This document shows positions 37,398 to 48,826 of a stretch of 64,000 nucleotides of DNA, one piece after another. Origin of the DNA: Methanoculleus sediminis (GTDB lineage Archaea > Halobacteriota > Methanomicrobia > Methanomicrobiales > Methanoculleaceae); NCBI RefSeq assembly GCF_001017125.1, contig NZ_JXOJ01000004.1:1-64000 (forward strand). The letters run 5' to 3'. Under the pieces are notes generated by a model. It made no database searches, was not told the origin of the DNA, and was given only the letters and a program-made list of their open reading frames with translations. Numbering within the stretch: position 1 is the stretch's first letter; each line of letters begins with the position of its first letter. The position numbers were made by a program, and so were the translations under genes.

Positions 37398-38474
37398 TTA
37401 GGTTGGTACGCCAGAAATGACTTTAACAATAAAGGTCACGATCGGGATAACAACGGATCCTATAAATTGAATGAGTAACCCGGCGTCCACTGTCCGGCTA
37501 CCGGAATAAAGGTGCACTAACCTTTCTCGTTCTGCGTAGAGGGTATCCATAGAAAGCTTGACAGCCATAACCTCGTAACCATCTCTCACGAGATCGCCTT
37601 TAGAGATCACATCTAGAAGTTTCCCACTGAGTTCATGGTACTTGTTGTTGATATTGTCAACCTGCTGCTCCATACAATTTCTTACAATCTTTCGTAATGC
37701 GCCTATACTTCGCATAATGAAGAATAGGCTGATGAAGAGGAGCAGTGCAAGCACAAAGATTTCATAGGTCACTCCAAAGGGAGAGATATAGGACAGGATC
37801 AGTAATGTAATTGTAATTGTATATATGGCATGTAATTTCAAGATGCTAGATTTTAACCGTTTCAACCCACCAACCCGGTCGACACACAAGATGTCCACAA
37901 TGACGTTTTCCCTGTACTCTGGTTTGCTTACTTCATCAAGGACAAATGCAACATTAACCATGAACCAGACCATTGTCGCAAATAGAAAAAGAATAAGGGT
38001 TCCAATTGTTTGATTGAAAATGTCAAATAGTGCGCTCCAGAGCGTAGGTTCCATACTGAAGGCAAATAACGGCCTTCCGCCGATATACTCGAAAAAAGAT
38101 CCCCCTATGAATACAATGAAAAGAATCAAAACCACCAGGAAATATCCTCGTGATAGACCGATCTGCCTTTGAAACCTGGACAATAACATTTCGGCATTCT
38201 TGTCGTGCTGTGAGCAGAAAAGTAAGTTCTTGAACAATGCCGGAATTTGAGTATACATGTAACATAAGCCCGAAAGTTGAAATCCGACGAGTATACTCAC
38301 CGATAGCGACGTTACCATACTATAACGATCGGGCGGGAAAAAATTTACTTTTATCATAAAAAGGAGGAAGACAACAAATATCATACTTGATAGGAGAATT
38401 GGTGCTATAGGACAGGGGGTGCAAAGGCGACAGAAAATCGCACTAAGGTTGATTCGATCATTACTTGATGGCAT
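37398..38474 (-). CDS. Multi-pass membrane protein of island 1
   Basis: A 358-residue protein, AT-rich compared with the chromosome core. Four to seven hydrophobic segments are visible (about 24-41, 53-75, 113-132, 150-172, 215-250, 330-352), with a soluble, charged stretch between about 255 and 325 that looks helical (QQVDNINNKYHELSGKLL). No family is recognised. It lies 60 bases downstream of the secreted PEGA protein gene on the same strand, suggesting an operon. The base composition and position beside tRNA-Met suggest acquisition by transfer. Confidence 0.6.
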   Translation of the reverse strand: MPSSNDRINLSAIFCRLCTPCPIAPILLSSMIFVVFLLFMIKVNFFPPDRYSMVTSLSVSILVGFQLSGLCYMYTQIPALFKNLLFCSQHDKNAEMLLSRFQRQIGLSRGYFLVVLILFIVFIGGSFFEYIGGRPLFAFSMEPTLWSALFDIFNQTIGTLILFLFATMVWFMVNVAFVLDEVSKPEYRENVIVDILCVDRVGGLKRLKSSILKLHAIYTITITLLILSYISPFGVTYEIFVLALLLFISLFFIMRSIGALRKIVRNCMEQQVDNINNKYHELSGKLLDVISKGDLVRDGYEVMAVKLSMDTLYAERERLVHLYSGSRTVDAGLLIQFIGSVVIPIVTFIVKVISGVPT

Positions 38475-38534
38475 TCTCCATACCCCGGGTTTGGGGTGGG
38501 AGCCATGGTGGCATAAAAAGGTTTTGTTTAAATG

Positions 38535-39398
38535 TTATCCAAATATGCTGAGAGGCCAACCCGGGGTTGTGGAAGTTATGGTGGAGATCCAACTGTCAGA
38601 TTCAGAGTTATACGTTAGTTCAATCGTTGTAGATTTGTCGATGTCGAGCGTCTCATAATGTTGAGGGTAACCCTCCAGAATCAAACTGAGATTATATTGT
38701 CCAGGGCGAGCCAGAGGGATTTCCATCGGAGTTAATCCTTTTTCTTCACCATCAAGGATAATCGCGGCACCTTCGGGATCGGACTGAACCGCAAGCATGA
38801 CATGGGGAACAGGACCTGGAGCAGCAGCTGGGTGGACTGTTTCAATACCTGTTGTATAAGTAGTTTCATTCTCTCGGAGTCTCTCACTAATCGCTGTATA
38901 GTTGGTTTCATTCTCTTGGATTTTTTGTAAAAGAGTCTGCATACGGATATCATAAAAAGTCTGCATACGGATATCATACCTTCCTGTACGGTAATCGATC
39001 CAGATAACCCGGTAACCATCGGTGTCAGGAGAAACTTGTTTCGCTGAATCGTTAGTCAATTGGATCATGGATTTGCTGCTGATGTCATAACAATAGATAT
39101 CATAGTTTGCCTCCCACACGATCCAGTTTCCAGATAGGGCAATTGTATGGACGGAGACATTTTCGATGAGCGTGCTGTTCGTTCCGGAGGTGATGTTGCG
39201 TGAGATTACGTTGCCTATACTCTTGTTATGAGTGTTTTCCCACCAGACGACGGTATCTCCCGAAATTGCGGGATTGCTATAATGAACATCTGTAACGTTT
39301 GTACCGCTTACGTCAGCAGAAGATGCCGGCACACAAAATATCATAAGGAGAACTGAGATGAGAACTAATTCTATTATCTGCTTAAAGAGAGAGTTCAT
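38535..39398 (-). CDS. Secreted beta-propeller/PEGA-domain protein
   Basis: A 287-residue exported protein. A signal peptide (about 1-28, LVLISVLLMIFCVPASSA) precedes TolB-like repeats with the WWEN, WIVWEANYDIYCYDI and VIWIDYRTGRYDIRMQT patterns, then a repeated QENETNYTAI/RENETTYTTG spacer and a PEGA domain (about 202-270: VQSDPEGAAIILDGEEKGLTP). Such proteins act at the archaeal cell surface. An exact 21-base tandem duplication within a 24-base period doubles YDIRMQT. A GAGGGGTGG ribosome binding site lies before ATG 39398. It belongs to AT-rich island 1. Confidence 0.7.
   Translation of the reverse strand: MNSLFKQIIELVLISVLLMIFCVPASSADVSGTNVTDVHYSNPAISGDTVVWWENTHNKSIGNVISRNITSGTNSTLIENVSVHTIALSGNWIVWEANYDIYCYDISSKSMIQLTNDSAKQVSPDTDGYRVIWIDYRTGRYDIRMQTFYDIRMQTLLQKIQENETNYTAISERLRENETTYTTGIETVHPAAAPGPVPHVMLAVQSDPEGAAIILDGEEKGLTPMEIPLARPGQYNLSLILEGYPQHYETLDIDKSTTIELTYNSESDSWISTITSTTPGWPLSIFG
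38934..38978. repeat. 24-base tandem duplication within CDS
   Basis: AGTCTGCATACGGATATCATA occurs at 38934-38954 and again at 38958-38978, spaced by 24 bases (8 codons), so the reading frame is kept and the protein carries YDIRMQT twice. The copies are identical, which points to a recent duplication. Confidence 0.9.
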
Positions 39399-46692: not shown

Positions 46693-46765
46693 GCCCCAGT
46701 GGCTTAGCTGGCAGAGCGGCTGACTTGTAATCAGCAGGTCCCGAGTTCAAATCTCGGCTGGGGCT
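46693..46765 (+). tRNA. tRNA-Thr (TGT)
   Basis: A 73-base tRNA: acceptor GCCCCAG pairs with CTGGGGC, discriminator T46765 (U73, normal for archaeal tRNA-Thr). Anticodon arm GCTGA-CTTGTAA-TCAGC gives TGT. No intron, no encoded CCA. Its 3' end borders AT-rich island 2. Confidence 0.95.
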
Positions 46766-46815
46766 TTCTCATTTTAGTTCATATGCCCTTATGATGTGAT
46801 TGATCCTTATTCAGG

Positions 46816-46935
46816 AATGGATAGGGTTTGAGTCCCGGTCGGCGCATCAGAACTTGAAGTTCGAATCCCTTCTTCTGACATCCCTATTCAGTAGAGCGTG
46901 CCATACAAAGACGAGGTCGTGGGCACAAGTCGCTT
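46816..46935 (+). pseudogene. Cluster of decayed tRNA fragments
   Basis: Several tRNA-like pieces lie here. GGATAGGGTTTGAGTCCCGG (from 46819) resembles a T arm. CAGAA...GTTCGAATCC...TTCTG (about 46848-46876) forms a hairpin with a T-loop core. CAGTAGAGCG...GAGGTCGTGGG (about 46889-46923) resembles D arm to T arm without a proper anticodon. None folds as a full tRNA. Confidence 0.45.
46864..46933 (+). repeat. Left direct repeat of island 2
   Basis: AATCCCTTCTTCTGAC (46864-46879), then 11 bases, then GTAGAGCGTG and AGGTCGTGGG match the segment at 48667-48732 with the same spacing up to GTAGAGCG and a 2-base shift afterwards. The shared 13-base AATCCCTTCTTCT is outside normal tRNA consensus, so the match is more than tRNA homology. 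It may be a decayed attachment site. Confidence 0.5.
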
Positions 46936-47055
46936 TTCTTCACTTTGAATTCAATCTCAATCGTATTCTACGAGAGCAACTTGACGATCATCGTTGCACC
47001 GTCATTTGAAACCATAAAACTACATTGTATTTAAACAAACGTAAAATCATTTATT

Positions 47056-47856
47056 ATGGATCTGCTATCGGAACTGGTTGTACTCATTATATATTTGGTG
47101 GATATTCAAATAGTCATCCTTGGAGCAAATTTATCATACAATATTTTTCGCTTATTAGTAATTGTAGGAGATTTTATCCTATTTCTCAATTTTGTTATGT
47201 TATGCCTGTATTTGCATAGTGTATGTACCAAATATGATTGGAAAACACCTCCTGCACCAAAACCATCAAAGTTTCAAAATTTTTGGGATAATGTACCCTC
47301 TTTAATAAAAAAAGGGCGTAGAATACTACAATTTTATCTTGAGTATATTATCTACCTGTCTATCATCGATCTCTACTTTATGCATCGCGGCTATAAGAGG
47401 GCATGTTATCAGCTGAAAAAGCAGGATTCAGAAAAATACGATGCCATCATCATCGTTTCAGATAAGTGTTATAAAAGATCAAGGATGTACGGATCTATTG
47501 ATCTCTTGATAGATTTTTTTAGCAAAAATCAGATTAGTTATCAGATCTTCCACGTCGACCTCAAAGAGGAAGTCAGAGCAATAATCTCAGATCCTCTCGC
47601 TCAAAGTTTATGGATTTTTGGACATGGAGACAGGGGAGGCGTAAGTTGTAGAGATGGTTTTTTTGAATATTCTATGGTAAATATTGCCCATAAAAAGAAA
47701 TATGTCTATCAATTTCACTGTAATGGCGGAACCGACGAACCTCTGTTTAGTATCATATCGGAAGGTAGGGGTTATTCAAGTAATCGAGTGACTGATACCT
47801 TCAAGAATCGAAGGGATGTTAAACAAATTCTCCAAGACGAGCAGTGGAGAATCTAA
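47056..47856 (+). CDS. Membrane-anchored caspase/CHAT-like protein
   Basis: A 266-residue, AT-rich gene product. Two N-terminal membrane helices (about 6-24 and 32-54), a basic linker and a further hydrophobic stretch (about 92-108) precede a cytoplasmic domain. There, YDAIIIVSDKCY, then SLWIFGHGDRGG (His190) and, 32 residues later, YQFHCNGG (Cys222), show the HG...C pattern of clan CD (caspase/CHAT) peptidases. This is pattern-based; overall similarity to known families is not recognised. It sits alone in island 2 with a convergent small membrane protein. A regulated cell-suicide or defence protease is a hypothesis only. Confidence 0.55.
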   Translation: MDLLSELVVLIIYLVDIQIVILGANLSYNIFRLLVIVGDFILFLNFVMLCLYLHSVCTKYDWKTPPAPKPSKFQNFWDNVPSLIKKGRRILQFYLEYIIYLSIIDLYFMHRGYKRACYQLKKQDSEKYDAIIIVSDKCYKRSRMYGSIDLLIDFFSKNQISYQIFHVDLKEEVRAIISDPLAQSLWIFGHGDRGGVSCRDGFFEYSMVNIAHKKKYVYQFHCNGGTDEPLFSIISEGRGYSSNRVTDTFKNRRDVKQILQDEQWRI

Positions 47857-48113
47857 ATTCAGCGATATTACTCGCCGATAAGGACTTTACCACTCCCATT
47901 ATTCCAACCACACCCATATAGTGGTATATTCACGGCGGATCAGTAGACCAGCCAGACCACCAATGCGCCGACGAAGAACCGAACTCCCACTCGCCAAGAT
48001 AGAGAAGTTCTCGCCAGTTATGTGATCATCTATACGAGGCATTTCGCCGCCCGGATGTAAAAATAGTATGTTTTGAGTCTACTCCCTCAAAATCAGCGCT
48101 CTTATCCGTGCGC
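47857..48113. other. Spacer between island 2 genes
   Basis: Convergent spacer of 257 bases. Minus-strand frames here include a 47-codon frame (47899-48042) and, in another frame, a hydrophobic tail reading RVGVRFFVGALVVWLVY before a stop, possibly the remnant of a membrane protein gene. Not called as a gene. Confidence 0.3.
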
Positions 48114-48506
48114 TTAAAGCGATTTATTGTCTAAATCTGGTTTTTTGAAACCCGATATCGGCTCATCACTGACCACTTTGATGTACACACAAGCTAATGC
48201 CATCAGAGCGATGACTCCTATCCCTATAACTATGTTCCCGGACACAATAGCAAGTGAAACTGCAGAAATTCCCATTGAGGTTGTAGCAATTATCGATGCA
48301 GTTGCCGCAAGTTTCATTGAGGCTTGTGCTACTATGGAAGATTTTGCCTGTTCTTCGAACAGCCCGATTAAAATTGGTACTGTGACGGAGTCAGGGCAGT
48401 TCTTCAAGGCCTCAACCATTTCTGGATCATCGTTCAGTCTTTCAATGAATTCTAGCGTCAACGTCCTAAATTCTTCGTATTCTTCTTGTTTCATAGATAT
48501 TCCCAA
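48114..48506 (-). CDS. Small two-helix membrane protein of island 2
   Basis: A 130-residue protein (126 if started at the internal Met at residue 5). An acidic helical N-terminal part (KQEEYEEFRTLTLEFIERLNDDPEM) is followed by two hydrophobic segments (about 67-88 and 90-110) separated by a short turn, and a short polar tail. No family recognised. It converges on the CHAT-like gene. AT-rich composition and placement between tRNA remnants indicate it belongs to the same acquired element. Confidence 0.6.
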   Translation of the reverse strand: MGISMKQEEYEEFRTLTLEFIERLNDDPEMVEALKNCPDSVTVPILIGLFEEQAKSSIVAQASMKLAATASIIATTSMGISAVSLAIVSGNIVIGIGVIALMALACVYIKVVSDEPISGFKKPDLDNKSL

Positions 48507-48826
48507 TGTGTGAACTCTCTCCTCACCCTATACAGGCGCCACCGCGTTCGGTGCTAGGCCATTAGAAACAACTATTGAAGCACGTGTTATATAATCACGT
48601 ATGCTTAAGACAGTCCTCTAAAAACCCCTCTTCGTTATTTGCATTACGTTACTGTTGATCTTTAGCAATCCCTTCTTCTTACGCAACCATTTGGTAGAGC
48701 GCGTCCTTGGTAAGGATAAGGTCGCGGGTTCGAATCTCTCCTGAGATACTCCATTTCCCCGACCATACACTCCCCCACCCCCACCCCATCGTAGTCCTTT
48801 TCACCCAACCCAACCCATATTTATAC
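48507..48826. other. Gap with promoter-like site and tRNA remnant
   Basis: No gene in these 320 bases. GTTATATAATC (48589-48599) is a good TATA box; no intact gene follows at the usual distance. The right half contains the decayed tRNA-Thr copy. The ribosome binding site and promoter of purL are not clear. Confidence 0.4.
48667..48750 (+). pseudogene. Decayed tRNA-Thr (GGT)-like sequence
   Basis: GGTAGAGCGCGTCCTTGGTAAGG carries a D-arm half and an anticodon loop TTGGTAA (anticodon GGT, Thr); GGTCGCGGGTTCGAATCTCTC resembles the T arm. The anticodon stem has mispairs, the T stem is broken and there is no acceptor 5' strand. The first 70 bases form the right copy of the direct repeat that brackets island 2. 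Confidence 0.55.

Follow-up and report, generated by a model that had tools for sequence, protein, structure and literature searches.

Caspase-like effectors are already known from prokaryotic conflict systems, and such proteases form a link between immunity in prokaryotes and apoptosis in animals. Most of the forms known from prokaryotes are larger proteins that carry sensor or scaffold domains or work with partner proteins. In Csx29, the TPR-CHAT protease of Craspase, a CHAT dyad (H615/C658) is switched allosterically and carries out limited cleavage of the target Csx30 (PMC10028731). A survey of peptidase C14 found membrane helices in 15% of the prokaryotic C14 sequences and a few C14 proteins in archaea (PMC3501461). 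For CARF-TM and SAVED-TM proteins, the effector function is attributed to the membrane part and sensing to the soluble part (PMC9704534).

Here we analyze a gene in a 64,000-nucleotide stretch of Methanoculleus sediminis DNA (the window) that encodes a 266-residue protein with a predicted membrane hairpin and a predicted caspase-like domain (Table 1). Like SAVED-CHAT (8tl0) and Csx29, both from CRISPR-linked conflict systems of prokaryotes, the protein and its relatives have a putative His-then-Cys dyad on consecutive core strands. Unlike them, it has a membrane hairpin and is without a SAVED, TPR, or pseudo-caspase domain or a CRISPR partner. The two residues are 32 positions apart in the window protein and 43 apart in Csx29, a value overlapped by the range of the family (32–52, median 34). 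Compared with CHAT proteases the 145-amino acid domain is minimal, and Pfam CHAT does not recognize it. Caspases, metacaspases, and orthocaspases (C14, PF00656) share the order of strands and dyad and are the second-best fold match, but the window protein gives no C14 profile match, its p10-like half is much reduced, and its motifs are H128xAIII, K214, and QxHCN, where C14 has SGHG and DxCxSG. The transmembrane effectors of CBASS and type III CRISPR systems resemble the family in that membrane segments are fused to a soluble domain; CARF-TM and SAVED-TM are abortive-defense effectors, and the window protein differs from them in having a putative enzyme as its soluble part.

Table 1. Coordinates of the gene, its predicted parts, and the surrounding island in the window
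Feature	Coordinates	Strand	Evidence
Intact tRNA-Thr(TGT), left hotspot border	46693..46765	+	
Hotspot, tRNA-Thr(TGT) to purL	46766..48826		purL identified by reading
tRNA-Gly(GCC) 3'-end remnant	46824..46855	+	31/32 identical to genomic gene
35-nt tRNA-like direct repeat, left copy	46864..46898	+	imperfect (77%)
TTTAAA, archaeal TATA-box-like	47030..47035	+	read from sequence; ~26 nt upstream of ATG
Gene for membrane-anchored caspase-like protein, 266 aa	47056..47856 (ATG to stop, included)	+	sequence
N-terminal membrane hairpin, helices ~aa 3–21 and 33–51 (predicted)	47062..47208	+	hydropathy scan
Caspase-like domain, aa 121–266 (predicted)	47416..47853	+	AlphaFold2 models, Foldseek
Codon of putative catalytic His190 (FGHG)	47623..47625	+	sequence; conserved 40/40
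Codon of putative catalytic Cys222 (FHCN)	47719..47721	+	sequence; conserved 39/40
Convergent small protein, 130 aa	48114..48506	-	
35-nt tRNA-like direct repeat, right copy	48667..48701	+	1803 nt from left copy
tRNA-Thr(GGT) remnant, 53 nt, right-hand debris	48693..48745	+	49/53 identical to genomic gene

Predicted fold and putative active site

The kilobase that contains the start and body of the gene (47001–48000) has a GC content of 36.7%, compared with ∼60–69% in its surroundings, so the 266-residue ORF in an AT-rich island, as given in a preliminary description of the locus, stands. The position of the TTTAAA element would fit a leaderless archaeal transcript. We assigned membrane segments and topology by a hydropathy scan and positive-inside inference rather than with a dedicated topology predictor. 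The scan predicts two N-terminal segments, in line with the membrane anchoring proposed earlier. At least one membrane segment is found in ∼30 of 41 family members (range 1–4); two is the commonest number, and four members have four. Most members have short, weakly charged loops and a net positive stretch after the last segment, and by the positive-inside rule the C-terminal domain therefore probably faces the cytosol.

AlphaFold2 was run with an input alignment of 18 natural sequences. The C-terminal domain is confident in the full-length model, with most blocks from residue 150 at 88–97, and the isolated 145-residue domain reaches a pLDDT of 88.5 and a pTM of 0.85. The domain models predict the order β1-α1-β2-α2-β3-His190-hairpin-β4-Cys222-β5-α, which we take to be that of the caspase p20 core, followed by a second half that is strongly reduced. 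This predicted α/β core places the His after β3 and the Cys after β4, as expected for a clan CD or caspase-like fold. A Foldseek search of the PDB with the isolated domain returned the SAVED-CHAT filament 8tl0 as the top match (E 1.9e-3, probability 1.00, TMq 0.54), with caspase-3 and caspase-11 next (probability 1.00, TMq up to 0.59), and caspase or CHAT chains account for 48 of the first 50 rows. The TM-scores are moderate (0.41–0.59), and the best E value is ∼2e-3. The full-length model again retrieved the caspase and CHAT families, mixed with receiver domains and at weaker scores. Membership of the domain in the caspase-like fold is supported by these predictions.

We could not connect the domain to either family at the level of sequence. 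When aligned with hhalign to seven CHAT domains from relatives (E 0.86), it scored no better in the forward direction than a reversed control, and the score against peptidase C14 domains from relatives (E 0.21) equaled that of the reversed control; a sequence-level link to CHAT or C14 was accordingly rejected, and the relationship is carried by structure. By profile the protein belongs neither to CHAT (PF12770) nor to peptidase C14/metacaspase (PF00656), and a PF00656 search of the 2.49-Mb genome that contains the window gave no match. A match in fold that is not accompanied by a CHAT or C14 profile link defines a new, minimal, and divergent caspase-like family. The caspase/CHAT-like fold put forward in the preliminary description is borne out by the model and its Foldseek matches, and its GHG/HC pair as a clan CD-like dyad by conservation (see below). 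We specifically looked for the two outcomes named there as fatal, a predicted structure that lacks the caspase-like α/β fold and homologues that lack the His and Cys, and encountered neither. From the models and the conservation of the dyad, we judge it very probable that the domain has a caspase-like fold and a His/Cys active site, and likely that the protein is an active protease.

The best viral fold match of the domain is an uncharacterized 320-residue myovirus protein (BFVD A0A8S5MXG5; E 1.3e-3, TMq 0.59), perhaps a caspase-like protein carried by a phage.

Distribution and conservation of the family

We located about 40 homologues of the window protein in total. An initial search found one in 15 of 100 relatives, and a profile of the C-terminal domain matches in 27 of the 232 genomes of the window's class (12 of 40 genera) and in five more genomes from other groups of the same phylum. 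A second genome of the same genus (G015) carries a homologue. Among named genome contigs, homologues occur in Methanoculleus chikugoensis, Methanoregula, Methanolinea, Methanocorpusculum, and two DPANN archaea, one Woesearchaeota and one Nanoarchaeota genome. Two contigs would extend the range to bacteria. The first, a 3.5-kb public-assembly contig labeled Acholeplasmataceae (L024), holds a copy 98% identical to that of G064, which groups with Methanocorpusculum-like sequences on the tree; it is probably mis-binned and was set aside. The second is a Bacteroidetes contig of only 3.8 kb (L034), an unconfirmed occurrence.

The window protein matches nothing in Pfam or PADLOC-DB 2023 at E values up to 10, and nothing in NCBIfam or PHROGs; a sequence search of solved structures gave chance matches only. 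In the literature searched, which includes few subscription papers, we recognized no description of the family. Annotated phages, plasmids, and IMG/VR contigs contain no match to the protein, and a phage or plasmid origin of the gene was rejected for this reason.

Family proteins mostly share 20–45% overall identity. We counted conservation over 40 distinct homologous domains: Gly-189, His-190, and Gly-191 of the GHG motif are each present in all 40, as are Tyr-205, Gln-219, and Leu-230, whereas Cys-222 and His-221 are found in 39 and Asn-223 and Lys-214 in 38. Because the putative dyad is near-invariant across the 40 domains despite such low overall identity, its conservation is more than chance. 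Three close pairs yield dN/dS ratios of ∼0.21, 0.25, and 0.36, and the protein is thus under purifying selection.

In one natural member (L030:7737–8450) a glycine replaces the catalytic Cys (QFHGN) and all else is kept. It is possibly a pseudo-protease, and some family copies may therefore be inactive or act otherwise. The copy in G003 (L003, L017) is split into two frames, as expected of a costly or dispensable mobile gene.

A mobile gene without a fixed partner

The interval between tRNA-Thr(TGT) and purL is a cargo hotspot in Methanoculleus. In relatives with both flanks placed (L112–L120 and L123), it holds differing and mostly AT-richer cargo. On the purL side of the hotspot, G017 carries a phage integrase, a DrmMI-like methylase with a DrmD-like helicase, a TIR-STAND protein (ThsB-like TIR), and a GNAT; a GNAT gene is also present in the hotspot of G005, G010, and G016, making four Methanoculleus species. 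Other relatives have proteins of unknown function there. The window's island had been described as bordered by tRNAs. This holds on the left, where the tRNA-Thr(TGT) is intact, but the right side has no intact tRNA and only the tRNA-Thr(GGT) remnant.

The GC fraction of the homologous gene lies 0.04–0.30 below that of its flanks at 14 of 14 loci measured. Host families are intermixed on the tree (for the window's family, 6 rows with 5 changes, shuffled mean 5.6). Together with the tRNA-linked sites and repeats, low GC and mixed hosts mark the gene as mobile, and patchy, horizontal spread of the family is strongly supported. In L029 (5408–9225) two copies of tRNA-Ala(GGC), with 95% identity across 100 nt, enclose a 3.7-kb segment that contains the homologue. 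The segment looks like a small integrated element; it also encodes a 115-residue ORF resembling GIY-YIG and a 163-residue ORF resembling PIN (both by eye). The G005 hotspot (L116) contains two tRNA-Thr copies (100 and 92% identical to the window's) on either side of a 215-residue PEGA-like ORF, as if insertion had duplicated the tRNA.

Over 17 homologous loci and the window we found no recurrent neighbor, except in two close, syntenic DPANN loci and a few pairs. That the gene stands alone, with no fixed partner, is strongly supported, and the earlier observation that no known defense partner adjoins it is supported. The same description had suggested a pair with the convergent 130-residue membrane protein. 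Relatives of this protein are weak or fragmentary and occur in 6 of 232 genomes; the best is a fragment of 31 residues in the same hotspot of G015, where the protease gene is absent. We found no true counterpart beside any homologue, and since co-occurrence is not conserved, the two-gene pair was rejected.

Neither a SAVED or CARF (cOA-sensing) domain in the protein nor a Cas gene recurring beside its homologues was found, and the family thus does not show the association of type III CRISPR CHAT effectors; a Cas4-like gene lies near one homologue only (L026). Other defense-like genes beside homologues are PD-Lambda-1 (L019), a DruE-like gene (L020), a DpdF-like helicase (L022), and a pAgo-like gene (L028). 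The PD-Lambda-1, DruE-like, pAgo-like, and Cas4-like genes are at most 6.5 kb from their homologues. As a control, 50 ordinary window genes also match defense models, mainly those of methyltransferases, so such matches alone prove little. The PADLOC count fails to separate neighbors of homologues from ordinary window genes; we discarded enrichment as evidence and regard it as suggestive only. In G017 the homologue is followed, after 13 nt and on the same strand, by a 236-residue ORF (L019:8448–9155) that adjoins the PD-Lambda-1 gene. This ORF, which is not conserved at other loci, may be a local partner in an operon.

Proposed role and competing readings

The location and mobility of the gene make a toxin or defense role plausible, and we consider a function in a conflict system, of either kind, reasonably probable. 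A little less firmly, we favor a cysteine protease with the caspase/CHAT fold that is tethered to the membrane, acts alone, and would serve as a self-contained effector of cell death or growth arrest, most likely antiviral. The scheme we infer, from proteolysis and cytosolic orientation through trigger and substrates to cell death and a defense purpose, would run as follows. The two-helix hairpin would keep the 145-residue catalytic domain on the cytosolic side of the membrane. The protease would stay inactive until a trigger arrives, either a perturbation of the membrane that the hairpin senses or the delivery of a ligand or substrate to the protease; we found no sensor domain in the protein. 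The trigger would cause clustering or a rearrangement of the active site, upon which His-190 would activate Cys-222 to cleave host or viral proteins in a limited manner. Cleavage would lead to arrest or death of the cell, most plausibly in response to invading elements, and small tRNA-linked islands would carry the gene between genomes.

A selfish toxin or addiction gene, in which a membrane-tethered protease toxin stabilizes a mobile segment and has no antiviral role, would equally be expected to be stand-alone, AT-rich, mobile, and tRNA-linked, and the GNAT fold that shares the hotspot in four relatives is used by known toxins. No antitoxin recurs next to the gene, however, and conservation of the gene does not extend to the convergent small protein, which makes this reading unlikely. 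Somewhat less probable again is a regulatory membrane protease that acts in stress signaling, not in death or defense, through limited proteolysis of a target such as a membrane or transcription factor, in the manner of orthocaspases or Csx29. Csx29 cleaves a single regulator, Csx30, so limited cleavage by CHAT proteases is possible (PMC10028731), and two to four membrane helices could act as a sensor. But the patchy occurrence (27 of 232 genomes of the class) and horizontal spread would be unusual for a core stress regulator, and no conserved substrate gene adjoins. A non-proteolytic use of the fold, as pseudo-enzyme, binding module, or for other Cys/His chemistry, could account for a sequence outside the CHAT and C14 profiles, for the one natural Cys-to-Gly member, and for a Gln (Gln-219) that precedes the Cys by three residues, where the caspase QAC motif has a distance of two, yet is improbable with a His and Cys that are near-invariant in very divergent members and occupy the same topological positions as the dyad of caspases.

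Returning to the self-contained effector, we would tentatively go one step further: the gene may represent an undescribed, self-sufficient, membrane-anchored caspase-like immune protease that unites tether, activation, and execution and needs no CRISPR, CBASS, or STAND partner, an archaeal programmed-death effector passed horizontally, within tRNA-linked islands, among methanogens and DPANN archaea. What is new is the family itself, its minimal domain, the membrane hairpin, and its mobility as a lone gene, which match none of the libraries searched. A minimal, membrane-tethered, single-gene form would extend the caspase-like effectors, and defense catalogues would miss such archaeal genes. The family would also offer a simple system for studying how a caspase-like protease is switched at a membrane, and the tRNA-Thr-purL hotspot of Methanoculleus is a place to seek more archaeal defense genes.

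The window contains a second AT-rich island (37401–39398, minus strand) with two ORFs. One encodes 358 residues with membrane segments by eye, and the other, of 287 residues, looks like a secreted PEGA/β-propeller protein.
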